Source of the DNA: Nocardiaceae bacterium
GTDB lineage: Bacteria > Actinomycetota > Actinomycetes > Mycobacteriales > Mycobacteriaceae
NCBI GenBank assembly: GCA_021372355.1
Contig: JAJFUQ010000208.1
Span: 62,001 to 126,000, forward strand
Direction: 5' to 3'
Length of the DNA stretch: 64,000 nucleotides
In this document: positions 5,944 through 32,448 of the stretch, in pieces
Position numbering within the stretch: the stretch's first letter is position 1
Layout: the number at the start of each line of letters is the position of its first letter
Notes under the pieces: generated by a model
What the model saw: only the letters and a program-made list of their open reading frames with translations
Database searches by the model: none
What the model was told of the DNA's origin: nothing
Made by a program: the position numbers and the translations under genes

Positions 5944-6242
5944 GGCTCGCGACTCTTCCGACCCACCCAGTCGGCGCCCTTGCCGACCGCATCAGCGAGC
6001 AACCCGCCAACGTCGAGGCCGAAACGCGCGATCTTCGCCGCGGTGTCGTCCGCCTTGGATTCGACCTCGGAGGACTTCGCCTGGGCGCGTGATTTGAGGT
6101 CGGCCGCTAGGGAGGCAGCGAAATCCGACCCTTCGGCCACCCGTGGCTTCATCTGTTCCCACACCGGCTTGGCTGCACGCCGGACTTCTTCGACGGTCCG
6201 CTTCAAGTCGTCACTGATCTCGCGCCATTGTTCGTTAGCCAT
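5940..6242 (-). CDS. Hypothetical charged helical protein, 100 aa
   Basis: I do not recognise this short protein. It is rich in Lys, Glu, Ala and Asp and is predicted by eye to be mostly amphipathic helix, with a glycine-containing stretch (FGLDVGGLLADAVGKGAD) near the C-terminus. That pattern is seen in small membrane-associated or stress proteins, but I assign no function. It converges on the 5521-5943 gene with a three-base stop overlap and is divergent from the hydrolase gene at 6315. The ATG at 6242 is preceded by a good GAGGAGGG-like ribosome site, which supports translation. Confidence 0.7.
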   Translation of the reverse strand: MANEQWREISDDLKRTVEEVRRAAKPVWEQMKPRVAEGSDFAASLAADLKSRAQAKSSEVESKADDTAAKIARFGLDVGGLLADAVGKGADWVGRKSREP

Positions 6243-6290
6243 GGTCAGACCCTCCTCGTGCCGCAGCCGACGCCGCCAAACCCCAGTTTA

Positions 6291-6303
6291 GGCAGTAACT
6301 GCC
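6291..6303. promoter_or_regulatory. 13-bp palindrome between divergent genes
   Basis: GGCAGT-A-ACTGCC is a perfect inverted repeat 11 bases before the GTG start of the hydrolase gene and about 50 bases from the divergent small gene. It could be an operator or a hairpin covering the start region. No Shine-Dalgarno is visible before 6315, so the downstream gene may be leaderless. The function is inferred only from symmetry and position. Confidence 0.3.
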
Positions 6304-6314
6304 ACACTGATTCT

Positions 6315-7076
6315 GTGTTGAACGTTCACCGCTTCGGGAACCCCGACAACCCGACGATCCTCGCGCTGCACGGACTGACCGGCCACGGTCGCCGTTGGGA
6401 AGATCTCGCCACGAACCACCTCCCAGACTTCCACGTCATCGCCCCAGACCTCCGAGGGCACGGGCGCTCGCCGTGGACGCCTCCGTGGTGCCTCGAGGAT
6501 GTGGCGGGTGACCTCGTCGAGCTTATCGACGAGCCCGTGATCGTCGTGGGCCACTCGTTCGGCGGCGCCGTTTCGCTGCACCTCGCACATGCGCACCCGG
6601 AGCTGGTGAAGGCCTTGGTTCTCCTGGATCCGGCCATCGGGCTCAGCCCGGACATGATCCTCGACCACGTCACGGGGACGCTCAAGAGCCCCGACTACGC
6701 GGACGAAGCGGAAGCACGCCGCGACAAAACGTCCGGAAGCTGGGGCGAGGTACCGAACCATCTGCTCGACGCGGAGGTTGCCGAGCACCTCATCCCCACG
6801 GATAACGGACGCGTGGGATGGCGCATGTGCATTCCGGCGGTGGCCGCGTTCTACGGCGAACTGGCCCGTCCGCTGGTGCTGCCCAGCTGCCCCACGGCGC
6901 TCGTGCGCGCACTGACGGTCAAGCCTCCCTATGTCACACCGGCGTTGATCAACGGACTACGCGAACGGCTCGGAGCCGACTTCGACCTGCGCGAATGGGA
7001 CTGTGATCACATGGTCGCCCAGGCCCGGCCTGTCGAGGTCGCAGCGCTCATCCGGAAGGTTGCGAGTGCCCACTGA
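6315..7076 (+). CDS. Alpha/beta hydrolase, LipV-like
   Basis: This 253-residue alpha/beta-hydrolase is the positional counterpart of mycobacterial LipV (Rv3203), which follows adnA there. The nucleophile elbow is GHSFGGA, the oxyanion segment is LHGLTGHGRRW, and the catalytic histidine is probably in WDCDHMVA near the end. The fold usually hydrolyses esters; the substrate cannot be read from sequence. I chose GTG 6315 because the protein then begins directly with the first beta strand (VLNVHRFG). An open extension reaches 6228 but would overlap the divergent gene. The last 11 bases overlap the next gene, indicating co-transcription. Confidence 0.85.
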   Translation: MLNVHRFGNPDNPTILALHGLTGHGRRWEDLATNHLPDFHVIAPDLRGHGRSPWTPPWCLEDVAGDLVELIDEPVIVVGHSFGGAVSLHLAHAHPELVKALVLLDPAIGLSPDMILDHVTGTLKSPDYADEAEARRDKTSGSWGEVPNHLLDAEVAEHLIPTDNGRVGWRMCIPAVAAFYGELARPLVLPSCPTALVRALTVKPPYVTPALINGLRERLGADFDLREWDCDHMVAQARPVEVAALIRKVASAH

Positions 7077-7362
7077 TGAACAGATCGAGCGCGTCCGTGA
7101 ACTCGTCCGATCTGTTCCCGAAGGAGAAGTGACCACGTACGGCGACCTCGCCGAGGCGGCCCACTTACCAAGCCCGCGCATGAGCGCCTGGATCATGAAG
7201 CACGACAGCTCCGACCTGCCGTGGCATCGGGTCGTCCGGGCGGACGGGACACCGGCTCCGCACATCGCCGCTAAGCAACTCGAATTGTTGCGGCAGGAGG
7301 GTGCGCCGATCCGCGACGGCCGCGTGGACATGAAGATCGCCCGGGCTACGCTGACCCCATGA
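7066..7362 (+). CDS. Alkyltransferase-like (ATL) DNA-binding protein
   Basis: This 98-residue protein has the DNA-binding domain of O6-alkylguanine-DNA alkyltransferases (VPEGEVTTYGDLAEAA, then DLPWHRVVRADG). The catalytic cysteine of the PCHRV motif is replaced by tryptophan, giving PWHRV. It should therefore bind O6-alkylguanine lesions and flag them for nucleotide excision repair rather than remove the alkyl group, as known for Atl proteins such as Atl1 and E. coli YbaZ. GTG 7066 has an upstream GGAAGG ribosome site. It overlaps the hydrolase by 11 bases and the next gene by four (ATGA). It corresponds to Rv3204 in position. Confidence 0.9.
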   Translation: MPTDEQIERVRELVRSVPEGEVTTYGDLAEAAHLPSPRMSAWIMKHDSSDLPWHRVVRADGTPAPHIAAKQLELLRQEGAPIRDGRVDMKIARATLTP

Positions 7363-9098
7363 CGCCACCGTTGCGCCGCGCCGACGCGATCATCCTCGCG
7401 GGCGGACGCGCGACTCGAATGGGCGGCGTCGACAAGCCCGGCCTCGTCGTCGGTGGTCGCTCGATGCTCGCGACAGCGATCGACGTGGTGTCCGAATGCG
7501 CGACGATCGTCGTGGTCGGGCCGCAGCGAGACCTGCCTTCGGAGATCGTTCAGGTTCAGGAATCGCCTGCCGGGTCGGGACCGGTTTCCGGCATCGCCGC
7601 CGGTCTCGCCGCCCTACCCGACGGCTCGGAAATCGTCGTGGTGCTTGCCGCCGACCTACCGTTCATCTCGCGCGCGTCAATCCAGACATTGATCGATGCC
7701 TGTCAGAACGGTGACGCCGCTTTCGCGTCCGATTCCGACGGCAACCCCCAGTACCTGGCCGCCGCATGGCGCACCGCCGCGCTCCGCGAACAACTCCGGA
7801 GCGTCGGCTCGCTCGAGAACCAGCCGATGAAGCGACTCGTTCCGGCCCACCTGATCACCGTGCCGCTCGCCGACATCACCGACTGTGACACCCCGGCCGA
7901 TGTCACCGCCGCCCGCCGCGCGAGCACTCGTTCGCTCTCGGTCGATGAAGCCCGGGAGACCATCGCGGCGGCACTTCGCCCGCTCGCACCGCGTCCGGTT
8001 CCCGCACCTCACGCACTGGGATCGACCTTGGCGGAACCGCTCGTCGCCGCTTCGCCACTTCCGCGCTTCGACTTGTCCGCGATGGACGGTTACGCGGTCT
8101 CCGGGGACGGTCCGTGGCGGCTGCGGTCCGAGGTCGGATACGCGGGTGGAGTTCGCCCCGACCGCCTCGAGAACGGCGAGGCCGTACGCATCGCAACCGG
8201 CGCACACCTGCCGCCCGGAACCACGAGTGTCCTGCGCGACGAGTTCGCGACGGTCCGGGACGACGTCGTCACTCGAACCGAGGGCACTCCGGTACGGGAC
8301 GATCGCCGCCAGTCGGGCGAGTCGTGGAAGCCCGGCGATGTGCTCGTCGCGTCCGGAACCGTGGTGTCTCCGGCAGTCATCTCGGTGGCCGCGAGCGCCG
8401 AGGTTTCCGAACTCGTGGTCCGCGGTCCGGTTCGAGCACATGTCGTCGTGACCGGCGACGAGATCCGGCGCGAGGGCCCGTTGCGGGACGGCCAAACGCG
8501 CGACTCGATCGGGCCGATCCTGCCGAACTTCCTGCGTTGGTTCGGCGTGCAGACGAAATCCGAAGCGCACCTGCGGGACACCGCGAGCGGATTCGACGCT
8601 GTCCTCGCCGAGGCAGACGCGGACCTCATCGTCGTCATCGGCGCGACCGGTCACGGCGCCGCGGACCAGTTGCGCACCGCTCTAGAGCGGGCGGGCGCTG
8701 ATCTTCTCGTCGAACGAGTCCAGACGCGTCCGGGTGGTTCGCAGATCGTGGCGTGCCTGCCAGACGGCCGCGTCGTCGTCGGGTTGCCCGGAAATCCGTT
8801 CGCGGCGATCGCGACGGCGGGGATCCAGGTCCCCGGTATCGCCGCCGCACTGACCGGCCGTTCCGGGCGCCCCAAAGAGCTGGTTCAGCTCGCGAACGCC
8901 GAGGACGTGAGTGCCGACAGCACGCGCGTGATCCCGGGCAATCCCGACGGATCCGGACGATGGATCGCACATCATCCGAGGTTCCAGACCGCACACCTCG
9001 CGGCGCTCACCGGACAGTCGGGCCTGCTGGTCATCCCACCCGGAACGACCTCCGATGACCTCGTCGAAGTGGTCCGGATACCGTCCGGGGAAATGTAA
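7359..9098 (+). CDS. MobA-MoeA fusion, molybdenum cofactor synthesis
   Basis: This 579-residue protein joins two cofactor enzymes. Residues 1-190 are a MobA-type nucleotidyltransferase that adds GMP to molybdopterin; the signature is LAGGRATRMGGVDKP at about 13-27. Residues from about 195 form a MoeA-type molybdenum insertase, recognised by SAMDGYAVSG, RIATGAHLPPGT, VIGATGHG and VGLPGNPFAA. The MobA part makes the bis-MGD form required by nitrate reductase. narG starts 274 bases downstream on the same strand, so the context fits cofactor supply for NarGHI. The gene overlaps the ATL gene by four bases. In many bacteria these are separate genes. Confidence 0.93.
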   Translation: MTPPLRRADAIILAGGRATRMGGVDKPGLVVGGRSMLATAIDVVSECATIVVVGPQRDLPSEIVQVQESPAGSGPVSGIAAGLAALPDGSEIVVVLAADLPFISRASIQTLIDACQNGDAAFASDSDGNPQYLAAAWRTAALREQLRSVGSLENQPMKRLVPAHLITVPLADITDCDTPADVTAARRASTRSLSVDEARETIAAALRPLAPRPVPAPHALGSTLAEPLVAASPLPRFDLSAMDGYAVSGDGPWRLRSEVGYAGGVRPDRLENGEAVRIATGAHLPPGTTSVLRDEFATVRDDVVTRTEGTPVRDDRRQSGESWKPGDVLVASGTVVSPAVISVAASAEVSELVVRGPVRAHVVVTGDEIRREGPLRDGQTRDSIGPILPNFLRWFGVQTKSEAHLRDTASGFDAVLAEADADLIVVIGATGHGAADQLRTALERAGADLLVERVQTRPGGSQIVACLPDGRVVVGLPGNPFAAIATAGIQVPGIAAALTGRSGRPKELVQLANAEDVSADSTRVIPGNPDGSGRWIAHHPRFQTAHLAALTGQSGLLVIPPGTTSDDLVEVVRIPSGEM

Positions 9099-9372: not shown

Positions 9373-12300
9373 GTGTCTTCGATCGACTCGCTCGACGATT
9401 CAGGCACGGCGACCAATCTCGCCCGTGCCGACCTGGCCGACTCACTCCTCGGCCTTGGCAAGTATTTCCACAAAGGCGAGATATCGACCGACGAGCGAAC
9501 GCTCCACAAGGTCGGTGGCCGCCAGGCCGACGACTTCTACCGCGACCGCTGGGCCCACGACAAGGTGGTCCGCTCGACGCACGGCGTGAACTGCACCGGA
9601 TCGTGCTCCTGGAAGATCTACGTCAAAGACGGCGTCATCACCTGGGAAGCCCAGCAGACCGACTACCCTTCCGTCGGCACCGACAAGCCCGAGTACGAGC
9701 CGCGTGGATGCCCGCGTGGCGCATCATTCTCTTGGTACACGTACTCCCCGGCGCGCGTGCGCTACCCGTACGTCCGCGGCACCCTGCTCGAGTACTACCG
9801 CGAGGCCAAGGCGCAGAAGAAGGACCCCGTCGACGCCTGGGAGTCCATCGTCGAAGACCCGGCGAAGGCCAAGGCCTACAAGTCTGCCCGCGGCAAGGGC
9901 GGATTCGTCCGCTCCGAGTGGTGGGAAGCGGCTGAAATGGCCGCCGCCGCACACGTTTACACGATTAAGAAGTACGGCCCGGACCGTGTTGCCGGCTTCT
10001 CGCCGATCCCCGCGATGTCCATGGTCAGCCACTCGATCGGTGCGCGATTCATCTCGCTCATCGGTGGCTCGATGCTGTCCTTCTATGACTGGTATGCCGA
10101 CCTTCCGGTCGCCTCGCCGCAGATGTTCGGCGACCAGACCGACGTTCCGGAGTCGGCCGACTGGTTCGACGCGGGCTACCTCATCATGTGGGGCTCGAAC
10201 GTCCCGGTGACCCGGACCCCGGACGCGCACTACATGACCGAGGCGCGCTACCGCGGCCAGAAGGTCGTCGTGGTCTCGCCGGACTACGCGGACAACACGA
10301 AGTTCGCCGACGAGTGGCTCCCCGCCCGTCCGGGCACCGACGCCGCCCTCGCGATGGCGATGGGCCACGTCATCCTCAAGGAGTTCTTCGTCGACCGCAC
10401 GACGAGTCGGTTCGACTCGTACGTCAAGAAGTACACCGACCTCGCCTACCTCATCGAGGTCGAGGAGAAGCACGGTGCGTACGTGCCAGGCAAGTTCCTC
10501 ACCGCCGACCTCCTCGGCGACAAGAGCGAAGGCGCGAAGTCGAAGACGGTCCTGCTCGACCAGGATGGCAACCCGGTCGTCCCGAACGGAAGCCTCGGCG
10601 ACCGCTTCGCGAGCGACGGCGAAGGCAAGTGGAATCTCGACCTAGGGGAAGTGGACCCGCTCCTGACGCTCGGCGCTCTGCCCAATGGTCGCTCCGCAGG
10701 CTCCGCTCCTGGTGAACCTGTAGAGATCCTCCTCCCCCGCTTCGACACCCCGAAGGCGGAGATCCTGCGCCGCGGAGTCCCGACCAAGATCGTCGCCGGC
10801 AAGCGCGTCACGACGGTCTTCGACCTGATGCTTGCCCAATACGGCGTGGGCCGCGAAGGACTTCCGGGCCAGTGGCCGACGGGCTACGACGACGCCGACG
10901 AGCCGTACACCCCGGCTTGGCAGGAGTCGATCACCGGCGTCCCGGCCGCCGCGGCCGAGCGCATCGGACGCGAGTTCGCCGACAACGCAGAGCGTTCGGG
11001 CGGTCGCTCGATGATCCTGATGGGCGCTGGAACCAACCACTGGTTCCACTCTGACCAGATCTACCGCTCATTCCTCGCACTCACGACTCTCACCGGATGT
11101 CAGGGCGTCAACGGCGGCGGTTGGGCGCACTACGTCGGCCAGGAGAAGTGCCGTCCGGTCACCGGTTGGGCGACTCTTGCCTACGCACTGGACTGGCAGC
11201 GCCCCGCACGCCAGATGCAGGGCACGATCTTCTGGTACATGGCCAATGACCAGTGGCGCTACGACCCGTTCACCACGGACGTGTTCCAGTCGCCGCTCGC
11301 CGAGGGCAAGTTCGCCGGCAAGACCGCCGCCGACACCATCGCGCAGTCGGCGCGTATGGGATGGATGCCGAGCTACCCGACGTTCAACAAGAACCCGCTG
11401 GACTTGGCTGACGCAGCCGAGGAAGCCGGCGTTGACGCCGGTCAGTACATCGTCGACGGCCTGCAATCGGGAGACCTCGAATTCGCCGTCGAAGACCCGG
11501 ACGCCCCGGAGAACTTCCCCCGCTGCCTCACCGTGTGGCGAGCGAACCTGCTTGGTTCGTCGGGCAAGGGCAACGAGTACTTCATGAAGCACCTGCTCGG
11601 CACCGACAACAACGTCGAGGCGAAGGATGAGCAGGGCGCCCGCCCCAAGACAGTGAAGTGGCGCGACGAAGCACCGGTCGGAAAGCTCGATCTGCTGGTC
11701 GCCCTCGATTTCCGCATGACCAGCACGACGCTGTTCAGCGACATCATCCTGCCGGCGGCGACGTGGTACGAGAAGCACGACCTGAGCTCGACCGACATGC
11801 ACCCGTTCGTGCACGCGTTCAGTCCCGCGATTTCACCGCCGTGGGAGACCAAGACGGACTTCGAGGCATTCCACCGTATCGCGCGTGGATTCTCGTGGCT
11901 CGCGGAGAAGCACCTCGGCATCCGCAAGGACATCGTGGCGGTCCCGCTGTTCCACGACACCGCGGATGCCCTCGCCCAGACCGGCGGCAAGGTCCTCGAC
12001 TGGAAGGCCGGCGACTGCGAGCCGATCCCCGGCAAGACCATGCCGGGAATCAAGGTCGTCGAGCGTGACTACCCGAACGTCGCAGAGAAGATGGGTGCGC
12101 TCGGCCCGCTCGTCGAGAAGCTCGGCCTCACCACCAAGGCCGTCACGACCTTCCCGGACGAAGAAGTCGAGTACTTGGCCAGGTTCAACGGCACGGTGAA
12201 GGACGGCGTCGCCGCGGGCCGTCCGTTGCTCGTCAAGGACACCCACAACGCCGAGACGATCCTTGCGCTGTCGGGAACCACCAACGGCCGCATGGCAGTC

Positions 12301-13098
12301 GAGGGATTCCGGGCTCTCGAGCGCCGCACCGGTACCCACCTCGCCGATCTCGCCGAGGAGATGGAAGGCAAGCGGATCACGTTCGCGGACACGCAGGCGC
12401 GACCGGTTCCGGTCATCACTTCGCCGGAGTGGTCGGGTTCGGAGACCGGCGGACGTCGCTACTCACCGTTCACGATCAACGTCGAACGTGACAAGCCGTG
12501 GCACACCCTGACCGGTCGCCAGCACTTCTACCTCGATCACGACTGGATGTGCGAACTCGGTGAGCAGATGCCGATGTACAAGCCGCCGTTGGACATGACC
12601 GCGCTGTTCGCCGAGCCTGGCGTCGGCGATTTGGGCGAAGCCGGGATCACCGTGCGCTACCTGACGCCGCACTCGAAGTGGTCGATCCACTCGGCCTACC
12701 AGGACAACCTGTACATGCTGACGCTGTCCCGCGGTGGCCAGAACATCTGGATGTCCGACGTCGACGCCGCCAAGATCGGCGTCAAGGACAACGACTGGAT
12801 CGAGTGCACGAACCGCAACGGTGTCGTCAACGCTCGCGCGGTCGTCAGCCACCGTATGCCCGAGGGGCTGGTGTTCATGTACCACGCCCAGGACCGTGCG
12901 GTGGACGTACCGAGGACCGAGAAGACCGGCAAGCGCGGTGGTATCCACAACGCGCTGACCCGAATCATGATCAAGCCGACGCACCTCATCGGTGGTTACG
13001 CGCAGCAATCCTTCGCGCTCAACTACCACGGTCCGACCGGAAACCAGCGTGACGAAGTGACCACAATCCGTCGCCGTAGCCAGAATGTGGAGTACTAA
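9373..13098 (+). CDS. narG: Respiratory nitrate reductase alpha subunit NarG
   Basis: This 1241-residue bis-MGD molybdoenzyme reduces nitrate to nitrite on the cytoplasmic side of the membrane. The N-terminal iron-sulfur ligands are H70, C74, C78 and C113 (HGVNCTGSCSW, then RGCPRG). The molybdenum aspartate lies in YDWYADLPVASPQ near residue 239, as in E. coli NarG. The protein is full length for the family and has no twin-arginine signal, which agrees with a cytoplasmic-facing enzyme. The GTG start follows GGAAGGGA. It is first in narGHJI; three bases separate it from narH. Confidence 0.98.
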   Translation: MSSIDSLDDSGTATNLARADLADSLLGLGKYFHKGEISTDERTLHKVGGRQADDFYRDRWAHDKVVRSTHGVNCTGSCSWKIYVKDGVITWEAQQTDYPSVGTDKPEYEPRGCPRGASFSWYTYSPARVRYPYVRGTLLEYYREAKAQKKDPVDAWESIVEDPAKAKAYKSARGKGGFVRSEWWEAAEMAAAAHVYTIKKYGPDRVAGFSPIPAMSMVSHSIGARFISLIGGSMLSFYDWYADLPVASPQMFGDQTDVPESADWFDAGYLIMWGSNVPVTRTPDAHYMTEARYRGQKVVVVSPDYADNTKFADEWLPARPGTDAALAMAMGHVILKEFFVDRTTSRFDSYVKKYTDLAYLIEVEEKHGAYVPGKFLTADLLGDKSEGAKSKTVLLDQDGNPVVPNGSLGDRFASDGEGKWNLDLGEVDPLLTLGALPNGRSAGSAPGEPVEILLPRFDTPKAEILRRGVPTKIVAGKRVTTVFDLMLAQYGVGREGLPGQWPTGYDDADEPYTPAWQESITGVPAAAAERIGREFADNAERSGGRSMILMGAGTNHWFHSDQIYRSFLALTTLTGCQGVNGGGWAHYVGQEKCRPVTGWATLAYALDWQRPARQMQGTIFWYMANDQWRYDPFTTDVFQSPLAEGKFAGKTAADTIAQSARMGWMPSYPTFNKNPLDLADAAEEAGVDAGQYIVDGLQSGDLEFAVEDPDAPENFPRCLTVWRANLLGSSGKGNEYFMKHLLGTDNNVEAKDEQGARPKTVKWRDEAPVGKLDLLVALDFRMTSTTLFSDIILPAATWYEKHDLSSTDMHPFVHAFSPAISPPWETKTDFEAFHRIARGFSWLAEKHLGIRKDIVAVPLFHDTADALAQTGGKVLDWKAGDCEPIPGKTMPGIKVVERDYPNVAEKMGALGPLVEKLGLTTKAVTTFPDEEVEYLARFNGTVKDGVAAGRPLLVKDTHNAETILALSGTTNGRMAVEGFRALERRTGTHLADLAEEMEGKRITFADTQARPVPVITSPEWSGSETGGRRYSPFTINVERDKPWHTLTGRQHFYLDHDWMCELGEQMPMYKPPLDMTALFAEPGVGDLGEAGITVRYLTPHSKWSIHSAYQDNLYMLTLSRGGQNIWMSDVDAAKIGVKDNDWIECTNRNGVVNARAVVSHRMPEGLVFMYHAQDRAVDVPRTEKTGKRGGIHNALTRIMIKPTHLIGGYAQQSFALNYHGPTGNQRDEVTTIRRRSQNVEY

Positions 13099-13101
13099 AC
13101 A

Positions 13102-14697
13102 ATGCGCGTAATGGCACAGCTGTGCATGGTCATGAACCTCGACAAGTGCATCGGCTGCCACACCTGTTCGGTCACCTGCAAGCAGGCTTGGACGAACCGT
13201 GGTGGCGTCGAGTACGTGTGGTTCAACAACGTCGAGACCCGGCCCGGCCAGGGTTACCCCCGGCAGTATCAGGATCAGGAGAAGTGGAAGGGCGGCTGGA
13301 CGCTCAACAAGAAGGGCAAGCTGACCCTGAAGTCGGGTTCACGCGCCAAGCGTCTGCTCAACATCTTCGCCAACCCGGTGCTGCCGACGGTGTCGGACTA
13401 CTACGACCCGTGGACGTACGACTACGAGAACATCCTCAATTCGGGCCCGTCGGACACGACGCCGGTCGCGCGCCCGAAGTCGCTCATCACCGGTGAGGAC
13501 ACGAAGGTCACCTGGGGCGCGAACTGGGACGACGACCTCGGCTCAGGCCCCGAGCAGGTCGCGAAGGACCCGATCCTGGCCAAGCTCGAGGACAAGGTCA
13601 AGCTCGAGTTCGAAGAGACCTTCATGTTCTACCTGCCGCGCATCTGCGAGCACTGCCTCAACCCGGCATGTGCCGCATCGTGCCCGTCGGGTGCGATCTA
13701 CAAGCGCTCGGAAGACGGCATCGTGCTCGTCGACCAGGACAAATGCCGCGGTTGGCGCCAGTGCGTCACGGGCTGCCCGTACAAGAAGATCTACTTCAAC
13801 CACAAGACCGGCAAGGCCGAGAAATGCACGTTCTGCTACCCGCGCGTTGAGGTCGGCATTCCGACCGTGTGCTCGGAGACATGCGTCGGGCGTCTGCGCT
13901 ACATCGGCGTCATGCTCTACGACGCGGACGCCGTGCTCGAGGCAGCCTCGGTCAAGGACGACAAGGACCTCTACCCGGCCCAGCTCAATGTCTTCCTGAA
14001 CCCGCACGACGAGCGCGTCATCCAGGCGGCTCAGGATGCGGGCATCACGAGCGAGTGGATCAAGGCCGCGCAGGATTCGCCGTGCTACAAGCTCATCGTC
14101 GACTACCAGGTCGCGCTGCCGCTGCACCCGGAATACCGCACGATGCCGATGGTTTGGTACATCCCGCCGCTGTCCCCCGTCGTCGATGTCCTCAAGGACA
14201 CCGGCCACGACGCCGAGAACGTGGGCAACCTGTTCGGCGCGATCGACGCGCTGCGCATCCCGATCGAGTACCTCGCGGAACTGTTCACCGCGGGCGACGT
14301 CGGCCCGGTTCGCGCTTCGCTCGACCGCCTGGCCGGCATGCGTTCGTTCATGCGCTCGATCAACCTCGGCGAAGAGCCCGACCTCGACATCTGCGAGGCG
14401 ATCCGCCTGCAGCCCGAAGAGATCGAAGCGATGTACCGCCTGCTCGCGATCGCCAAGTACAACGACCGGTACGTCATCCCGAACAACGCCTCGTCGGACG
14501 CGCACCGTCTCGATGCGCTCGCCACTGGTTGCAGTGTCGACGGCCCGGGTACGACCGCTTTCGAGGTCGTGGCGGACAAGTTCCACCTGCTCGATGACGC
14601 CAATGGCGCTGGACCGGAATACAAGCAGGGACGGGTGAACCTGCTGAACTGGGACGGTCGTAACGGATCCGCCGGTGTGGTTCCGGTGAAGCAGTGA
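13102..14697 (+). CDS. narH: Respiratory nitrate reductase beta subunit NarH
   Basis: This 531-residue iron-sulfur protein passes electrons from NarI to NarG. The first cysteine group is DKCIGCHTCSVTCKQ (C16, C19, C22, C26). Later groups are CEHCLNPACAASCPSG, CRGWRQCVTGCPYKK and KCTFCYPR. In the third group tryptophan replaces one cysteine (CRGW), which is the known sign of the [3Fe-4S] cluster in NarH. Length and motif order are normal. Its stop overlaps the GTG of narJ by four bases, so translation of the two is coupled. Confidence 0.98.
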   Translation: MRVMAQLCMVMNLDKCIGCHTCSVTCKQAWTNRGGVEYVWFNNVETRPGQGYPRQYQDQEKWKGGWTLNKKGKLTLKSGSRAKRLLNIFANPVLPTVSDYYDPWTYDYENILNSGPSDTTPVARPKSLITGEDTKVTWGANWDDDLGSGPEQVAKDPILAKLEDKVKLEFEETFMFYLPRICEHCLNPACAASCPSGAIYKRSEDGIVLVDQDKCRGWRQCVTGCPYKKIYFNHKTGKAEKCTFCYPRVEVGIPTVCSETCVGRLRYIGVMLYDADAVLEAASVKDDKDLYPAQLNVFLNPHDERVIQAAQDAGITSEWIKAAQDSPCYKLIVDYQVALPLHPEYRTMPMVWYIPPLSPVVDVLKDTGHDAENVGNLFGAIDALRIPIEYLAELFTAGDVGPVRASLDRLAGMRSFMRSINLGEEPDLDICEAIRLQPEEIEAMYRLLAIAKYNDRYVIPNNASSDAHRLDALATGCSVDGPGTTAFEVVADKFHLLDDANGAGPEYKQGRVNLLNWDGRNGSAGVVPVKQ

Positions 14698-15371
14698 AGC
14701 TGCTTCAGCGGCGCGGCACCATCGCGGTTGAACCCGACCGCGACCAGCGGTTGACGTGGCGCATCGCAGCATTCTTGCTCGATTATCCGAACGAGCAGAC
14801 GCTCGCGATGCTGCCCGATCTTCGTGCGTCGGCCGAATCGATGGTTCCGCACCTCGGTGGGCCGTTGCTGAAGTTCATCGACTACGCGCTGGCGCAGAAC
14901 CAGATCAGTCTCGGCCAGGAGTACGTCGCCACGTTCGACCTCAAGCGCCGAAGCTGCCTGCATCTGACGTATTACGCGTGCGGCGACACCCGCAAGCGCG
15001 GGATGGCGTTGCTGCGGTTCAAGCATGCGTACAAGGCGGCCGGGACACCTTTCGGCGAGGACTCCGGCGAGCTCCCCGATCACATTACCGTGGTTCTCGA
15101 GTTCGCCGCCACGGTCGCGCCAGTAGTCGGGGCGCGCCTTCTCGGCGAGCACTTGCCCCCGCTCGAACTGCTTCGGCTCTCGCTCGAGGAGAACGAGTCG
15201 CCCTACCAGCACGTGATTGCGGCGATCCTTGCGACGCTTCCGCCCATCACGAACGCCGACCGGCGCCGGATCGAGCAGCTCGCCGCCGAGGGTCCGCCCG
15301 AGGAAGAGGTCGGCCTCGAGCCGTTCGCGATGGACCCGACTCTGTACAACGACCAAGGAGGCCGTCGATGA
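14694..15371 (+). CDS. narJ: Nitrate reductase assembly chaperone NarJ
   Basis: This 225-residue protein is the TorD/NarJ-type chaperone that holds apo-NarGH until the molybdenum cofactor is inserted; it is not part of the final complex. It shows the typical pattern of an all-helical protein (WRIAAFLLDYPNEQTL near the front; KRRSCLHLTYYACGDTRKRG in the middle, a conserved NarJ segment). The GTG start overlaps the narH stop, and its stop overlaps the narI ATG, both by four bases. The position in narGHJI confirms the assignment. Confidence 0.95.
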   Translation: MKLLQRRGTIAVEPDRDQRLTWRIAAFLLDYPNEQTLAMLPDLRASAESMVPHLGGPLLKFIDYALAQNQISLGQEYVATFDLKRRSCLHLTYYACGDTRKRGMALLRFKHAYKAAGTPFGEDSGELPDHITVVLEFAATVAPVVGARLLGEHLPPLELLRLSLEENESPYQHVIAAILATLPPITNADRRRIEQLAAEGPPEEEVGLEPFAMDPTLYNDQGGRR

Positions 15372-16111
15372 CCAACTTGTTGTGGACGACATTCCCGTAC
15401 ATCGCACTCACCGTGTTCGCCGTCGGACACGTGTGGCGCTACAAGAACGACCAGTTCGGCTGGACCACGCGCTCGTCGCAGATCTACGAGTCGAAGCTGC
15501 TGCGCCTCGGTAGCCCGCTGTTCCACTTCGGAATCCTCGGTGTGTTCGCCGGTCACGTGATGGGCATCGCGATCCCTTCGAGCTGGACCGATGCCGTGGG
15601 CGTCGACGACCACATCTATCACTACGTTTCGCTGGTCGGCGGTGTCGTCACCGGCGTGATGACCTGCGCCGGTATCGCCATCCTGCTGTACCGACGTGCG
15701 ACGGTCAGCATGGTCCGAAAGGCCACCACCACCAACGACAAGGCGATGTACCTCGTGTTCATCGCGGTGCTGATCACCGGAATGATGAACACGATCGGCG
15801 TCAACTTGTTCGGGCCGGGATACAACTACCGCGAGACGATCTCCCCGTGGTTCCGGAGCCTGTTCACGCTGAACCCCAAGCCGGAGCTCATGGTCGGTGT
15901 CCCGATCACCTTCCAGGTCCACGCGCTCCTGGTGCTGCTGCTCTTCGCGATGTGGCCATTCACGCGCCTCGTTCACATGTTCAGCGCACCGGTCGGCTAC
16001 CTGGTGCGCCCGTACGTCGTGTACCGCAGCAAGGAGCCGGTCGGTGCCGGTCGCAAGTACGGAAAGGCCTGGGAGGTTCCGGCCCGCCCGCAACCACGGA
16101 AGTGGCTGTAG
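15368..16111 (+). CDS. narI: Respiratory nitrate reductase gamma subunit NarI (cytochrome b)
   Basis: This 247-residue membrane protein is the di-heme cytochrome b that oxidises menaquinol and feeds NarGH. About five membrane segments are visible. Candidate heme histidines include those in AVGHVWRYKND, LFHFGILGVFAGHVMG and QVHALLVLLLFAMWPFTRLVHMFSAP. The length is normal for NarI. It ends the nar operon; the convergent aldehyde dehydrogenase gene stops 29 bases away. No obvious terminator hairpin was found in that short gap. Confidence 0.96.
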   Translation: MTNLLWTTFPYIALTVFAVGHVWRYKNDQFGWTTRSSQIYESKLLRLGSPLFHFGILGVFAGHVMGIAIPSSWTDAVGVDDHIYHYVSLVGGVVTGVMTCAGIAILLYRRATVSMVRKATTTNDKAMYLVFIAVLITGMMNTIGVNLFGPGYNYRETISPWFRSLFTLNPKPELMVGVPITFQVHALLVLLLFAMWPFTRLVHMFSAPVGYLVRPYVVYRSKEPVGAGRKYGKAWEVPARPQPRKWL

Positions 16112-16140: not shown

Positions 16141-17799
16141 CTAGCGCCAGCGGACCCTCTTCAGCAGGTCGAGAGACATCATGATTCCGGTCTCGAACTG
16201 TTCGTGAGTCATCGGGCCGGGCGGCTGCAAGGTGAGAACCCGCTGGCGGGCAATGGTCTGCGATGACGTGTATTTGAGCAAGCCATACGTGCCGTGCCGA
16301 CTCCCCATGCCCGAGTCGCCGAGCCCACCCATGGGTGCGTCGACACTGCCCCACGCGGCGATGTAGTCCTCGTTGATCGTGACGATTCCGGCGTGGATGC
16401 GAGCCGCAATCTCGTCCACTTCGGTGCCGCCCCAGACGCTGGCAGCCAGCCCGTACTCGGTGTCGTTGGCCAAAGCCACGCCCTCGTCTACCGTCTTGAA
16501 GCGATATACCGAAACGACTGGCCCGAACGTCTCGTTGCGACAAAGCGTCATGTCGTCGGTAACGCCTTCGAGCAGCGTGGGCTCATAGAACAGCGGACCG
16601 AGGTCCGGTCGAGCCTTCGCGCCGGCGAGAACCGTTGCTCCCTTGGAGACGGCGTCATCGACGTGGCTGGAAATGACTTCGAGCTGCTCCTGGCTCGTGA
16701 GCGAGCCCATCTCCATACCGAACTCGTAGGTCGCACCAAGAGCAAGGTTTCTCACGCGCTCAGTCAGCGCACCGACGAACTCGTCGTAGATCTTGTCCTG
16801 TACGTACAAGCGCTCGATCGACACGCAAACCTGGCCGGCGCCGCCGTAACACGAGCGCAGCGAGCCTTCCACCGTGCGTTCGATATCGGCGTCATTGAGA
16901 ACCAGCATCGGATTCTTGCCACCGAGTTCCATGGAGGAAGCGATCAAGCGCTTACCAGCTTCGGCTGCCAGGTACCGTCCGGTCTTGGTCGAGCCGGTGA
17001 ACATCAGGTAATTCGCGTTGTCGAGAAGCGGCGTGCCGATCTGGCTGGATCTGCCCAGCGCGATCTGCCAAAGTCCCTCCGGCAGACCGGCCTGCAGTGC
17101 GAGGTCCAGGCCGTACAGCGCACAGAGGGCGGCTTGGTTGTCCGGCTTCTGAACGACCGCGTTGCCGGCGATGAGCGCGGGGATGGTGTCGCAGACGCTC
17201 AGGATGAACGGGAAGTTCCAGGGCGAGATGACGGACACCACACCTTTGGGTATGTGGATCTCCTTCACCGCGGTGAGCACGGGCGTGACGCCGGTGCGCC
17301 CCTGCGGCCCGAGGAGGTCGGGCGCGACCCGCGCGTAGTAGCGCGCGGTATTCATGATGTCCATGACTTCACGGAAGGCGTCGCGTCGCGTCTTGCCGTT
17401 CTCGATCTGGACTAGATCCATGATCGTTTCGCGATTGTCTTTGACCAGGTCGTGGTACTTCAGGAAGACCTTGGCGCGATCTTTGACCGACTTAGCCGCC
17501 CAGGCGGTTTGGGCTGCGCGGGCCGTAGCGAAGACCGTGTCTATCTCCTCCGCGGAGACCTGCGGGATGTCCGCAAGAGGCAGGCCGTTGTAGGGGGCGT
17601 AGGTGGTCACTGTCCCGCTGGCAGGGACTGCGCGCGAGAGCAGTCGGGCCACGAGATCCGGAGTCAGACTCTTGGGCATAGGCGCGAAGCCCGGGCCTGC
17701 GGCCGCCGCCTTTGCGGCTGCAGCGGCCGCCTTAGCAGCCGCCGTCGACTTCGGAGCCTTGGCGCCCTTCTCGACCGTGCCAGGTTTTGTGTTCGCCAT
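16141..17799 (-). CDS. Aldehyde dehydrogenase (succinate-semialdehyde type) with Lys/Ala-rich N-terminus
   Basis: This NAD(P)-dependent aldehyde dehydrogenase has ISPWNFPF, FTGSTKTGR, the catalytic glutamate in ELGGKNP and the catalytic cysteine in GAGQVCVSIERLYV. The core resembles the GabD2/succinate-semialdehyde branch. Ahead of the core lies an unusual stretch rich in Ala and Lys (KAPKSTAAAKAAAAAAK) of unknown role. ATG 17799 is preferred; GTG 17808 and an upstream start at 17880 are open. It is divergent from the copper monooxygenase operon across 372 bases. It could oxidise aldehydes from alkane oxidation, but this is inferred from position only. Confidence 0.92.
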   Translation of the reverse strand: MANTKPGTVEKGAKAPKSTAAAKAAAAAAKAAAAGPGFAPMPKSLTPDLVARLLSRAVPASGTVTTYAPYNGLPLADIPQVSAEEIDTVFATARAAQTAWAAKSVKDRAKVFLKYHDLVKDNRETIMDLVQIENGKTRRDAFREVMDIMNTARYYARVAPDLLGPQGRTGVTPVLTAVKEIHIPKGVVSVISPWNFPFILSVCDTIPALIAGNAVVQKPDNQAALCALYGLDLALQAGLPEGLWQIALGRSSQIGTPLLDNANYLMFTGSTKTGRYLAAEAGKRLIASSMELGGKNPMLVLNDADIERTVEGSLRSCYGGAGQVCVSIERLYVQDKIYDEFVGALTERVRNLALGATYEFGMEMGSLTSQEQLEVISSHVDDAVSKGATVLAGAKARPDLGPLFYEPTLLEGVTDDMTLCRNETFGPVVSVYRFKTVDEGVALANDTEYGLAASVWGGTEVDEIAARIHAGIVTINEDYIAAWGSVDAPMGGLGDSGMGSRHGTYGLLKYTSSQTIARQRVLTLQPPGPMTHEQFETGIMMSLDLLKRVRWR

Positions 17800-18171: not shown

Positions 18172-19062
18172 ATGGTTGCAGTACTCGACCGGGCTCAGAA
18201 GATCTGGGAGTCCTCGGTTTCAGGTCCGCCGGTACCCGCCCCCAAGGGCGAAAAGTCCGTGATGTCGGTTGGCAGCATGTGGAGCATCCCGCTCGCGATC
18301 GCGCCTGTCATCGCAATGGCCGTCTTCTGGCGCACCTGGCAGCAACTCTTTGCGTTCGACAAGGGCCTGGACTCGACGATGCCGGGCTTCAACGAGTACT
18401 GGCTCTCGATCTTCGGCTTCAACATGTTCGGCCTGCCGCTGATCGCTGCGGTCGTCTTCGCCGCCATCATCATCACCGGCATCAAGGCCTCGGCCACTCC
18501 CCTCACCCCGCACGAGGAGATGAAGCGGCACTGGCGCCTGATGCTCGGCATGGCAGCCTTCGCGATCGCTTCGTTCTTCGGCGCGCATTTCGGCGAGGAG
18601 GACGGCGCCTGGCACCAGGTCACGCTGCGTGACACCGCGTTCACCCCGAGCCACGTCGCGCTCTTCTACGGCTCGTTCCCGATGATGTTCTACGTCATCT
18701 TCGGCGTGTACCTCTATGGCCGCACGCGTCTGCCACACATGTGGGGCGGCAAGGCTGTGCCGCTCGGATTCGCGATCGTCATCGGCGGCACGACCCTGCT
18801 CGTGTTCCAGGTCGCCTTCAACGAGTTCGGCCACACCTACTGGCAGACCGAGGAAGTCTTCTCGGCACCGCTGCACTGGCCGTTCGTGTTCTTCGCGTGG
18901 ATGCTCATCGGCGTCGCTGCCATCTGGCTCCCGACCCTGCTGCGCATCACCGAGCTGGTCAAGAACGAGGTTCTGGCCAAGGAAGCGGCGGACGAAGACG
19001 CACAGTGGCACGGCATCACCGCCCAGCTGTCGCAGCCGGCCGGTGGAGACCAGACCGCATGA
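18172..19062 (+). CDS. pmoC: Copper membrane monooxygenase subunit C (AMO/pMMO/HMO family)
   Basis: This 296-residue integral membrane protein is the C subunit of the ammonia/methane/hydrocarbon copper monooxygenase superfamily. The copper site residues known from pMMO, one Asp and two His spaced by 4 and 13, are present as D144, H148 and H161 in EEDGAWHQ and DTAFTPSH. The glutamate two residues before the Asp is also kept (E142). About six membrane segments are visible. ATG 18172 was chosen for its AAGGGAG ribosome site. It is the first gene of a C-A-B operon, the usual order, and overlaps subunit A by ATGA. The best-studied actinobacterial relatives oxidise C2-C4 alkanes; substrate here is inferred. 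Confidence 0.95.
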   Translation: MVAVLDRAQKIWESSVSGPPVPAPKGEKSVMSVGSMWSIPLAIAPVIAMAVFWRTWQQLFAFDKGLDSTMPGFNEYWLSIFGFNMFGLPLIAAVVFAAIIITGIKASATPLTPHEEMKRHWRLMLGMAAFAIASFFGAHFGEEDGAWHQVTLRDTAFTPSHVALFYGSFPMMFYVIFGVYLYGRTRLPHMWGGKAVPLGFAIVIGGTTLLVFQVAFNEFGHTYWQTEEVFSAPLHWPFVFFAWMLIGVAAIWLPTLLRITELVKNEVLAKEAADEDAQWHGITAQLSQPAGGDQTA

Positions 19063-19832
19063 CCAACGGAGTCACCACCGAGGTACGCAACACAGACGCG
19101 GTCCTCAAGGCCTGGGAGGCGATCCCACGTCACTGGAAGTGGGTGCTGCTGGTCGGAGTGCTGGGAATCGTCACCGCCGCCGTGCATCTCGAGAGCATGC
19201 TCATGGCGGGTGACTGGTCCTTCTGGGTCGACTGGAAGGATCGCCAATGGTGGCCGCTCTTGACGCCGCCGGTGAACCTCGTCTTCACGGTCGTCGTTCA
19301 GTACATCCTGTGGACCAAGCTGCGTCTCCCGATCGGTGCCACCGTCGGTGCCACTCTGCTGGTGGTCGGCCAGTGGATTTCTCGCGTGTCGAGCTTCCAC
19401 TTCTGGGCTGACCTGCCGCTGAACTTCACGTGGCCGGAGACCCTGATCTTCGGCGCCATCATCATGGACGCGATCCTGCTGCTGAGCCGCAGCCTGATCC
19501 TGACGTCGATTTTCGGCAGCCTCGCCTGGGGTGGTCTCTTCTGGTGGGAGAACTACCCGATGATGTCCGCTTTCCTGCAGCCGCTCGTCTACCACGATCA
19601 CCTCATGACCGTGGCTGACTATCTCAAGTTCCAGCTCCCGATGTCGCAGGGACCGGAGTACTTGCGCATGGTCGAGGAAGGGCACCTCCGCGCACTCGTC
19701 AGCGACACCGTCGCGATCGTCGGATTCTTCTCGGCGATGGTCTGCGTCGGCGCGTACTGGTTCGGCGTGTTCCTCGGAAAGATGCTCGGTCTCGTTCCAG
19801 CCGGCAAGTTCCTGAAGCTGCAGTCGGACTAG
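19059..19832 (+). CDS. pmoA: Copper membrane monooxygenase subunit A
   Basis: This 257-residue membrane protein is the A subunit, the usual marker gene of the AMO/pMMO superfamily. The family segment GDWxFWxDWKDRxWW is visible at residues 51-65 as GDWSFWVDWKDRQWW. The second Asp of the common GDWDFW form is Ser54 here. WADLPLNFTWPE is another family match. About six to seven membrane segments are present. The ATG overlaps the subunit C stop, and 11 bases separate its end from subunit B. By gene order and length this is a complete subunit. Confidence 0.96.
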   Translation: MTNGVTTEVRNTDAVLKAWEAIPRHWKWVLLVGVLGIVTAAVHLESMLMAGDWSFWVDWKDRQWWPLLTPPVNLVFTVVVQYILWTKLRLPIGATVGATLLVVGQWISRVSSFHFWADLPLNFTWPETLIFGAIIMDAILLLSRSLILTSIFGSLAWGGLFWWENYPMMSAFLQPLVYHDHLMTVADYLKFQLPMSQGPEYLRMVEEGHLRALVSDTVAIVGFFSAMVCVGAYWFGVFLGKMLGLVPAGKFLKLQSD

Positions 19833-21061: not shown

Positions 21062-21291
21062 CCAATACGATTGTCGCCATGACGACTGGAATCCCCCTTG
21101 CACACATCGGCGGGATTCCAGTCGTCGAGGGCGCGGCCCTGGTCTTGATCGTTGCCGTGCCGGTCATCGCGATCATTCTGGCTGTCGTTCTCGGCGGTCG
21201 CATGCTCGCGAAGGTCGAGGCGCAGCAGGCGGCTCAGGACGCGGAGAACGCGGCCGCAGAGGGCGAGACAACGTCAGATCACGAGACTTAG
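21058..21291 (+). CDS. Small single-pass membrane protein of the monooxygenase operon, 77 aa
   Basis: The GTG at 21058 overlaps the pmoB stop by four bases (GTGA), so this gene is translationally coupled; ATG 21079 is an alternative start. The protein has one strong membrane helix (residues about 23-48, VEGAALVLIVAVPVIAIILA) and an acidic, Ala-rich tail. It has no cysteine and only two histidines, so it does not resemble the copper-binding PmoD. It may be a small accessory or stabilising subunit specific to this operon type. I assign no biochemical function. Its end overlaps the convergent pirin gene by four bases. Confidence 0.75.
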   Translation: MTNTIVAMTTGIPLAHIGGIPVVEGAALVLIVAVPVIAIILAVVLGGRMLAKVEAQQAAQDAENAAAEGETTSDHET

Positions 21292-27333: not shown

Positions 27334-27740
27334 GCCGTGCTGCTTTCGCGCGTTCGCATCATTGAAGCCACTTCCACCATGCCATTGACGACGCGAACGT
27401 CGTACACCGGCAGGGACTTGGTGTCGTCGTCGAGGCAGCGGCCGTCGATGAGCGAGAAGACTTGCTTCAGCAGCGGCGAGGCGACGGTCGGCTCGCCCTT
27501 GCGGTCACCGACGAGGCCACGCGACATCACTGCCGCCCGACCGAACGGGTCGATGTTGCCGACCGCGTAGAGCCGGTCGCCCGGCAGGCGGAACAGCGCA
27601 GCCTGCTTGCCGCCCGGCAGCAGCACGGCGACGCCGCGGTTCGGGATGAGGAAATCGAGCGCGCACGCCTTGATCCAAGCGCTATCCATCGGAACACTCC
27701 CGGTCGTTTCGACAGTGGTCATCTGAACTGAGGTGGTCAT
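27330..27740 (-). CDS. nirD: Nitrite reductase small subunit NirD
   Basis: This 136-residue protein is the Rieske-fold small subunit of NAD(P)H-dependent assimilatory nitrite reductase. The family segment GGKQAALFRLPGDRLYAVGNIDPFGRAAVMSRG is present in its usual form, lacking the iron-sulfur ligands, as normal for NirD. ATG 27740 overlaps the nirB stop (TAATG), which is strong evidence for this start; a longer open frame upstream is a shadow inside nirB. It overlaps the next gene by four bases. Confidence 0.95.
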   Translation of the reverse strand: MTTSVQMTTVETTGSVPMDSAWIKACALDFLIPNRGVAVLLPGGKQAALFRLPGDRLYAVGNIDPFGRAAVMSRGLVGDRKGEPTVASPLLKQVFSLIDGRCLDDDTKSLPVYDVRVVNGMVEVASMMRTRESSTA

Positions 27741-30253
27741 TACTGCCCCCATCCGGCTGGCTGAATTTCTGGCATTCCGAGAAGAACTGGCACCTTGCGC
27801 GGTCCCGAAGCGTCGAATCCGACGGTCGGGTCGTGCTCGGTCGGTGCGTTGACGAACGAAACGAAGCGAGCGAGCTTGTCCGGGTCGTTGACGACGTCGG
27901 CCCACTCGTCGGTGTAGCTGTCGACGTGGATGGCCATGGCCTTGTCGAGGTCGCCGGCGATCCCCAGGCTGTCGTCGATGACGACCTCCTTGATGTGATC
28001 GAGGCCGACGCTCTCCTGCCATGGCGCGGTGCGCTGCAGGCGGTCCGCGGTGCGGATGTAGAACATCAGGTAGCGGTCGATGTACTTGATGAGCGTCTCG
28101 TCATCGAGGTCGGTGGCGAGCAGTTCGGCGTGCTTCGGCGACTGTCCACCGTTTCCACCGACGTACAGGCCCCAACCGCGCTCGGTGGCGATGACACCGA
28201 CATCCTTGCCACGCGCCTCGGCGCACTCACGTGCACAACCCGACACCGCGAGCTTGAGCTTGTGCGGCGAACGCAGACCCTTGTAGCGGTTCTCCAGGAG
28301 GACGGCCATGCCGACCGAGTCCTGGACGCCGTAGCGGCACCACGTCTGGCCGACGCAGCTCTTGACCGTACGAAGCGACTTTCCGTAAGCGTGGCCCGAC
28401 TCCATGCCGGCGTCGATGAGGCGCTTCCAGATGAGCGGGAGCTCCTCGACGCGGGCACCGAAGAGGTCGATGCGCTGACCGCCGGTGACCTTGACGTACA
28501 GATCGAAGTCCTTAGCGATCTGGCCGATGACGATCAACTGCTCGGCGGTGACTTCACCACCGGGCATACGCGGAACGACCGAGTAGGTGCCGTTCTTCTG
28601 TAGGTTCGCCAGGAAGTGGTCGTTGGTGTCCTGCAGCGAGGCCTGCTCGCCGTCGAGAACGCTCTGCTTGGTGTCCTTGAGCGACGCGAAGATCGACGCT
28701 GCGGTCGGCTTGCACAGGTCGCAACCCGTGCCGGTGCCATGCTGCGCGATGAGTTCGGAGAAGGTGCGGATGCCCGTGACCTGGATGATCTCGAACAGTT
28801 CGGCACGCGACTGCGTGAAGTGCTCACAGAGCGACTTGGAGATCTCGACACCGGACTGGGCGAGGATCTTCTTCACGAGCGGCAGGCAGCCACCGCACGA
28901 CGTGCCGGCCTTGCTGCACTTCTTGACCTCGGCGAGGTCGGTGACGCCGTCGTGGATGACCTCGCAGATCGCACCCTTGGTGACGTTGTTGCAGGTACAC
29001 ACGACTGCGCTGTCCGGCATCGCGTCGGCCCCCAGCTCGGCACCTGCCGGGCTGATGAGTGCGGCCGGGTCTGCCGGCAGCGGACCGCCGACGAGCGGAC
29101 GCAGGGACGCGTACAGGCTCGCGTCGCCGACGAAGATGCCGCCGAGCAGCGTCTTCGCGTCGTCGGACACGACGAGCTTGGCGTAGGTGCCCTTGGCCGC
29201 GTCCATGAGGACGACCTCGAGGGCATTCTCGCTGTGCGCGTGGGCGTCACCGAAGCTGGCGACGTCGACACCGAGCAGCTTGAGCTTGGTCGACAGGTCA
29301 GCACCCGGGAACTCGGCTTCGCCGCCGAGCAGGCGATCGGCGATGACCTCAGCCTGCGCGTATCCGGGAGCGACGAGTCCGTAGCAGACTCCCTCGACCG
29401 CGGCGACCTCACCGACGGCGTAGATCGCCGGGTCGGAGGTGATCATCGACAGGTCGGTGATGACACCGCCACGCGGGCCGACCTCGAGGCCAGCCTCACG
29501 GGCGATCTTGTCCTGCGGGCGGATACCGGCAGACCAGACGAGCAGCGCAGCGTCGATCGTGCTGCCGTCCGACAGCTCGACGATCAGGCCCCCCGGGCCT
29601 TCCTTGATCGCCGCGGTGGAAACGCCAGTGTGCACGTTGACGCCGAGGTCGCTGATGAGCTTCTTGAGGACAGCGCCACCACCCTCGTCGACCTGAATCG
29701 GCATCAGGCGCGGAGCGAGCTCGATGACGTGCGGCTCCATGCCCATGAGCTTGAGCGCGTTCGCGGCTTCGAGGCCGAGAAGACCGCCACCGACGACGAC
29801 ACCGGTCGCGCCTGGGCCGGCCGCCTCAGCGGTGGCGCGGATGCCGTCGAGGTCCGCGAGCGTGCGGTAGACGAAGCACTTGTCGAGATCGTGGCCCGGA
29901 GCGGGCGGAACGAACGGGTACGAGCCCGTTGCCAGGACGACCGTGTCGTAGGCCAGGACCTCACCGGTGTTGGTGGTGACCGTCTTGGCTTCGCGGTCGA
30001 TCGAATCGGCGCGGACGCCGAGACGGAGCTCGACTGCCTCGTCACCGTCGTAGGTGTTGCCGGCGAGCGCGAGTTCCTTGTGGTCCCAGGTGCCGACGTA
30101 AGACGACAGACCGACACGGTCGTATGCGGGCAGTGGCTCTTCGCAGAGGACCGTGATGCGCCACTGGCCGGCCTCATCGCGGGCCCGCATGGCCTCGACG
30201 AATCGGTGTCCGACCATGCCATGTCCGATGACAATGGCAGTTTTCGGGCTCAT
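27740..30253 (-). CDS. nirB: Nitrite reductase large subunit NirB
   Basis: This 837-residue enzyme reduces nitrite to ammonium with NAD(P)H. An FAD/NAD-binding domain comes first (VIGHGMVGHRFVEA; VVGGGLLGLEAANAL). Next is a BFD-like [2Fe-2S] domain (VCTCNNVTKGAI and GTSCGGCLPLV). The C-terminal siroheme/[4Fe-4S] domain carries GQTWCRYGVQDS and LAVSGCARECAEARG. All segments are intact and length is normal. An AAGGAG ribosome site precedes ATG 30253. It is co-directional with narK upstream (175-base gap) and overlaps nirD. Confidence 0.97.
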   Translation of the reverse strand: MSPKTAIVIGHGMVGHRFVEAMRARDEAGQWRITVLCEEPLPAYDRVGLSSYVGTWDHKELALAGNTYDGDEAVELRLGVRADSIDREAKTVTTNTGEVLAYDTVVLATGSYPFVPPAPGHDLDKCFVYRTLADLDGIRATAEAAGPGATGVVVGGGLLGLEAANALKLMGMEPHVIELAPRLMPIQVDEGGGAVLKKLISDLGVNVHTGVSTAAIKEGPGGLIVELSDGSTIDAALLVWSAGIRPQDKIAREAGLEVGPRGGVITDLSMITSDPAIYAVGEVAAVEGVCYGLVAPGYAQAEVIADRLLGGEAEFPGADLSTKLKLLGVDVASFGDAHAHSENALEVVLMDAAKGTYAKLVVSDDAKTLLGGIFVGDASLYASLRPLVGGPLPADPAALISPAGAELGADAMPDSAVVCTCNNVTKGAICEVIHDGVTDLAEVKKCSKAGTSCGGCLPLVKKILAQSGVEISKSLCEHFTQSRAELFEIIQVTGIRTFSELIAQHGTGTGCDLCKPTAASIFASLKDTKQSVLDGEQASLQDTNDHFLANLQKNGTYSVVPRMPGGEVTAEQLIVIGQIAKDFDLYVKVTGGQRIDLFGARVEELPLIWKRLIDAGMESGHAYGKSLRTVKSCVGQTWCRYGVQDSVGMAVLLENRYKGLRSPHKLKLAVSGCARECAEARGKDVGVIATERGWGLYVGGNGGQSPKHAELLATDLDDETLIKYIDRYLMFYIRTADRLQRTAPWQESVGLDHIKEVVIDDSLGIAGDLDKAMAIHVDSYTDEWADVVNDPDKLARFVSFVNAPTEHDPTVGFDASGPRKVPVLLGMPEIQPAGWGQ

Positions 30254-31859: not shown

Positions 31860-32448
31860 TCTGCCTCCCCGTCGAAGTGGTGAGACTTCACGTTAGGAAG
31901 CGAGTGTTGCCACCGTGGTGACAGCACATGACCCGCACGTCACTAGCTCCTCACCGGCCCGTGGATTTGGCGGTGAGGCGCGGCAGGCTATTCAGTTCCG
32001 CGCGAACGCGTAAGAGCAATTTATCGGGCGTGTGTTGCGCTGATCTTTCGCAATGTGAAGCACAGATGACAATGCTTTCCGCATGTGGCACGACCAATTG
32101 TGCGGAGTTAATGTCGAAATCGGAGCACCTCGACGACCGCCAGCCACAGGCTTCTGACCTGCGGTTTTGTTCGTATGTTTCGGCTGCGTTGCCCGCTTGT
32201 TGCGTCACCTATTTGACCGAAACGGCGCCCGGCAATCGCAGCTTTCCGGCCTGACCTGCACTTATCCGGAGGGAGTCGCAAAGACTTCTCACAATGCCGG
32301 GAGCGGGATCGTGAGAAGGTGTTGCTCAATGCGTCATTGGCTGGCACGGGCAGGTAACAACCGCTCCGTAATGTCTCCTCCAGATCGAGTGAGTTCGCGA
32401 AAAACACTTACTAAAGCGAGCTCCTCCCTCACGAAGAGAGGACAGACG
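31860..32448. promoter_or_regulatory. Long divergent control region between two narK genes
   Basis: This 589-base stretch has lower GC than its neighbours and no convincing gene; short open frames in it lack ribosome sites and family features. An imperfect palindrome TGCCACC-GT-GGTGACA is at about 31907-31922. A hairpin CCTCACCG/CGGTGAGG lies at 31949-31978 and TTGCG/CGCAA at 32035-32053. The second half may be a long 5' leader for the rightward gene, ending in a GAGAGGA ribosome site close to a pyrimidine-rich CTCCTCCCTC that could pair with it. Confidence 0.35.

Follow-up and report, generated by a model that had tools for sequence, protein, structure and literature searches.

The window analysed here, a 64,000-nucleotide stretch from the genome of a Nocardiaceae bacterium, carries a complete hmoCAB operon in the order C-A-B, in which all three frames are open and the start of hmoA overlaps the stop of hmoC by four bases (ATGA) (Table 1). 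Each of the three products matched its Pfam family and solved structures of copper membrane monooxygenases (CuMMOs), and the presence of C, A and B subunits (PF04896, PF02461 and PF04744) within one operon places the locus among the CuMMOs. A single PF02461 match was found in the source genome, which is a draft of 281 contigs. The 70-aa ORF that follows hmoB occupies the position of the small gene found after hmoB in Mycolicibacterium chubuense NBB4, is present in Smaragdicoccus niigatensis too, and gave no match in a Pfam profile search. The divergent aldehyde dehydrogenase gene upstream of the operon possibly encodes a handler of the oxidised product. The surrounding region also contains nitrate and nitrite genes, with narGHJI just upstream (9937-16111) and a NirB-type nitrite reductase (27740-30253) and a NarK/NarU-like transporter (32329-33939) downstream, and, at 7359-9098, MobA-like and MoeA-like domains of molybdenum cofactor synthesis joined in one open frame, with scores under the curated cut-offs.

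Table 1. Features of the hmoCAB locus (positions in the window)
Feature	Position	Strand	Evidence or remark
Aldehyde dehydrogenase, divergent, upstream of operon	16141..17799	-	PF00171, E 8e-131
hmoC, 296 aa	18172..19062	+	PF04896, E 3.2e-56
HmoC Phe219 codon, replacing Trp229 inside the CuD motif (NEWGH to NEFGH)	18826..18828	+	Phe in 17/17 clade rows, Trp in 62 other rows
hmoA, PmoA/AmoA-type subunit, 257 aa	19059..19832	+	PF02461, E 6.3e-64; relatives in PDB
GDWSFW motif of HmoA and A189f primer site	19209..19226	+	2 A189f mismatches
Ser54 codon TCC, equivalent of M. capsulatus PmoA Asp49	19218..19220	+	ungapped alignment to 1yew_B
Gln105 codon CAG, equivalent of M. capsulatus PmoA Glu100	19371..19373	+	alignment to 1yew_B
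hmoB, 405 aa	19844..21061	+	PF04744, E 7e-101
70-aa ORF, one hydrophobic stretch, 3' of hmoB	21079..21291	+	hmoD-like by position only

The original prediction held that the classical GDWDFW motif of PmoA is changed to GDWSFW in this gene and that the changed residue aligns with Asp49 of Methylococcus, one of the residues of older tricopper models. Both points were borne out. The motif bases ggtgactggtccttctgg, read as GGT GAC TGG TCC TTC TGG, translate to GDWSFW within an intact hmoA, and residues 22-242 of HmoA aligned to residues 17-237 of M. capsulatus PmoA (1yew_B) without gaps (phmmer, PDB sequences), so that H43, M47, D52 and S54 correspond to H38, M42, D47 and D49 at the Methylococcus spacing, and Q105 aligns with E100. 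The tricopper residues proposed for PmoA are His38, Met42, Asp47, Asp49 and Glu100 (PMC9145241), and the prediction had not included the replacement of the last of these. Thus, two of the five residues of the proposed tricopper (CuE) site are lost, Asp49 to Ser54 and Glu100 to Gln105. The customary GDWDFW motif does not define CuMMOs, since NBB4-type hydrocarbon monooxygenases (HMOs) also lack it, and the residues beside Ser54, namely Asp52, Trp53, Phe55 and Trp56, are strictly kept.

Comparison with the particulate methane monooxygenase (pMMO) of M. capsulatus (1yew, 7ev9), a member of the same protein family, revealed that the ligands of the other copper sites are shared, including H35, H140 and H142 of HmoB at CuB (His33, His137 and His139), D144, H148 and H161 of HmoC at CuC (Asp156, His160 and His173), and N217, H221 and H235 of HmoC at CuD (Asn227, His231 and His245). 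In contrast, the CuA histidines are absent, with HmoB Arg74 in the place of the CuA ligand His72, and Trp229 of PmoC is replaced by Phe in addition to the loss of Asp49 and Glu100. Three phenylalanines, Phe177, Phe240 and Phe248, surround CuD (PMC11194816); at the same offset these are F165, F230 and F238 of HmoC here.

To place Ser54 among its relatives, PmoA sequences were collected from genome contigs, from whole genomes grouped by phylum, family and genus, and from plasmids, giving a 98-row alignment in which the residue at this position was Ser in 15 rows, Gly in two and Asp in 81. None of the 17 members identified in the Mycobacterium/Rhodococcus-type HMO clade had Asp, in contrast to 81 of 81 other rows, which were drawn mainly through peptide matches to this HmoA, are biased towards proteobacteria and do not include archaeal, verrucomicrobial, SAR324 and several other lineages. 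Two of the Ser rows are Smaragdicoccus genomes and two are Rhodococcus plasmids; M. chubuense NBB4, M. dioxanotrophicus and one Propionibacteriales MAG also have Ser, and the rest are other mycobacterial genomes, some of which nearly duplicate the plasmid records. In a maximum-likelihood tree the 17 Ser and Gly rows, the window's HmoA and that of NBB4 among them, formed one clade with support of 99/98, with both Gly rows nested inside it; the tree columns include position 54, and the single-origin count is to that extent slightly favoured by the trait itself. The two Gly rows come from mycobacterial genomes (G852 and G997) that have GDWGFW, carry Met or Val instead of Glu100, and encode C and B subunits in the operon. 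In the Propionibacteriales MAG (Dino_bin33, ORF around 6001-6711), hmoC and hmoA share a single 551-codon frame uninterrupted by a stop, which reflects either a true HmoC-HmoA fusion or an error in the MAG, and a family search around this MAG found no further member.

Across the alignment, the residues of the proposed tricopper site and the ligands of the other copper sites behaved differently. Outside the clade, H38 gives way in some rows to Asp or Asn, and the commonest residues are Ala at M42 and Thr at E100, whereas CuB, CuC and CuD ligands hardly vary; within it, none of the 17 members departs from the CuB histidines, the CuC Asp/His/His or the CuD Asn/His/His, and the Glu100 place is Gln in 14 of the 17. 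Residues found only in the clade include T124, E127 and H209 of HmoA, F219 of HmoC and R74 of HmoB.

The nearest relative of the window's operon is the CuMMO of S. niigatensis DSM 44881, listed as of unknown function (PMC8630023), whose PmoA is 96% identical and whose locus is collinear with the window over 12.7 kb at 91-93% DNA identity, although S. niigatensis is a species separate from the window's source. Because the PmoA values of another genome of the same genus (G396; 95.7% to the window) equal those of the S. niigatensis locus, the window most likely represents a second Smaragdicoccus species. The HmoCAB of NBB4, encoded on plasmid pMYCCH.01, resembles that of the window in its C-A-B order with a small gene downstream, in GDWSFW, in having Gln for Glu100 and NEFGH in HmoC, and in lying within the same supported clade, but its PmoA is only 54% identical, and its operon lies near an NDMA-dependent methanol dehydrogenase rather than beside narGHJI and an aldehyde dehydrogenase. 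The NBB4 HMO is reported to act on C2-C4 hydrocarbons, namely ethane, propane, butane and ethylene (PMC4678205).

A second group of actinobacterial enzymes, the Nocardioides-type CuMMOs (L012 and L104-L106), has the same C-A-B order and 37% PmoA identity to the window. CF8, a reported butane oxidiser, belongs to Nocardioides. L012 fell outside the HMO clade, in a group with Chloroflexi and other sequences, and three further Nocardioides genomes, outside the 98-row alignment (L104-L106), retain GDWDFW but have H38, M42 and E100 replaced by Asp, Leu and Ser, respectively; the Trp of NEWGH is also retained in this type. The proposal that Ser is common to actinobacterial HMOs thus stands throughout the Mycobacterium/Rhodococcus/Smaragdicoccus clade, with Gly in the two mycobacterial genomes, but does not extend to the Nocardioides type, and the statement that all actinobacterial HMOs have Ser is rejected. 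By these alignments, actinobacterial CuMMOs are of two separate types, which have lost different residues of the proposed tricopper site. No prior statement of the Ser/Gly signature was found in the literature searched; an earlier mention is possible, with some key HMO papers lying outside that search.

We also compared the motif with the primers used in pmoA surveys, as the change in these bases had been predicted to alter the A189 site, so that such surveys could miss the lineage. The site is indeed altered: A189f (GGNGACTGGGACTTCTGG) mismatches the window gene at two of its 18 bases, positions 10 and 11, and the seven bases nearest its 3' end all match. Within the clade the number of mismatches was two (6 rows), three (10 rows) or four (1 row), and in the 81 other rows it was zero (26), one (27), two (25) or three (3). 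For A682r, the closest site in the window gene had four mismatches, and the mb661 site had six to nine mismatches in every group and was uninformative. The A189f/A682r set is therefore poorly suited to the HMO clade, but the Ser codon is not decisive alone, and the idea that Ser by itself makes A189 fail is weakened, since 28 of the 81 other rows also carry two or three mismatches. Biases of 189f/682r have been reported (PMC6215863), and current pmoA primers rarely retrieve such genes (PMC4678205); the A189f mismatches help to explain this already published low PCR detection of the HMO clade in A189f-based surveys.

Taken together, we propose, with a probability of roughly 0.86, that hmoCAB encodes a CuMMO of the Mycobacterium/Rhodococcus-type HMO clade, that residue 54 is no copper ligand and that the Asp to Ser change had a single origin. 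An HMO acting at the HmoC copper, with residue 54 a non-ligand, is the simplest account. The NBB4 HMO is reported to be active and has Ser and Gln at these places, and quantum refinement of 7ev9 left copper at the proposed trinuclear PmoA site unsupported (PMC12576850); recent work places catalysis at the single-copper PmoC site (PMC12576850; PMC11194816). If Asp is assumed to be ancestral, the tree suggests that Asp most likely changed to Ser once, at or before the base of the clade, and that Ser would have changed to Gly later in one mycobacterial branch. The most likely role of residue 54, next to its conserved neighbours, is a structural one or one in hydrogen bonding. A PDB sequence search found no HMO structure from this clade, and the geometry around Ser54 is accordingly extrapolated. 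Relatedness to NBB4 suggests that the operon most likely would hydroxylate short-chain alkanes or alkenes at the single-copper HmoC site, and its substrates would be expected to fall in the C2-C4 range.

The sequence data weigh differently on the other explanations of Ser54. That Ser54 reflects gene decay or a mistake in sequencing or assembly has a negligible probability: beyond the draft state of the genome nothing speaks for it, whereas the TCC codon is two bases away from GAC, Ser recurs in 13 loci beyond those of the window and S. niigatensis, and the decay of a gene is at odds with three open frames and retained ligands. The original prediction named Asp in close relatives as the observation that would point to an error, but S. 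niigatensis has the identical TCC, next to a Gly codon that differs synonymously, and sequencing error is rejected on the same codon in this sister species. It is very improbable that the PmoA tricopper site is real and reshaped here, with Ser54, Asp52, His43, Met47 and Gln105 still holding copper. The equivalents of H38, M42 and D47 are kept and Ser and Gln are possible weak ligands, but the two relatives with Gly for Ser have Val or Met for Glu100, the variability of H38, M42 and E100 across rows is not matched by the CuB, CuC and CuD ligands, and the 7ev9 refinement gave no support for copper at that site.

Another explanation is that Ser54 is part of a functional switch, in which the loss of D49 and E100, together with T124, E127 and H209 of HmoA and F219 and H189 of HmoC, rebuilds a pocket that sets specificity for C2-C4 substrates over methane and ammonia. 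Every clade member carries these five residues, which other rows lack entirely or almost entirely, and the clade holds an enzyme with reported C2-C4 activity. We nevertheless consider a switch unlikely, as Nocardioides-type enzymes keep Asp49 and Trp229, so that the change looks unnecessary for the lifestyle of CF8, as fixed differences on a long shared branch require no functional link, and as Gly occupies position 54 in two clade members. It is similarly doubtful, and a little more so, that the loss of D49 and E100 with HmoA Glu127 and His209 and the Trp229 to Phe change beside CuD constitutes a remodelled substrate or proton path giving C2-C4 preference. Because other CuMMOs also differ widely at E100, M42 and H38, little follows for catalysis from the loss of D49 and E100 here.

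On the reading of hmoCAB as an HMO-clade enzyme with a non-ligand at residue 54, Ser54, in the place of the Asp of methane and ammonia oxidisers, is a lineage-fixed change at a residue dispensable as a copper ligand, in agreement with structural work against a PmoA tricopper site. A CuMMO clade that includes an active enzyme does without two of the five proposed tricopper residues while all CuB, CuC and CuD ligands are kept. The distribution of Ser54 and Gln105 provides independent sequence evidence against the tricopper cluster as a general active site and gives targets for mutagenesis. For this soil actinobacterium, the Ser in its enzyme is a shared mark of the group to which its known alkane-oxidising relatives belong.
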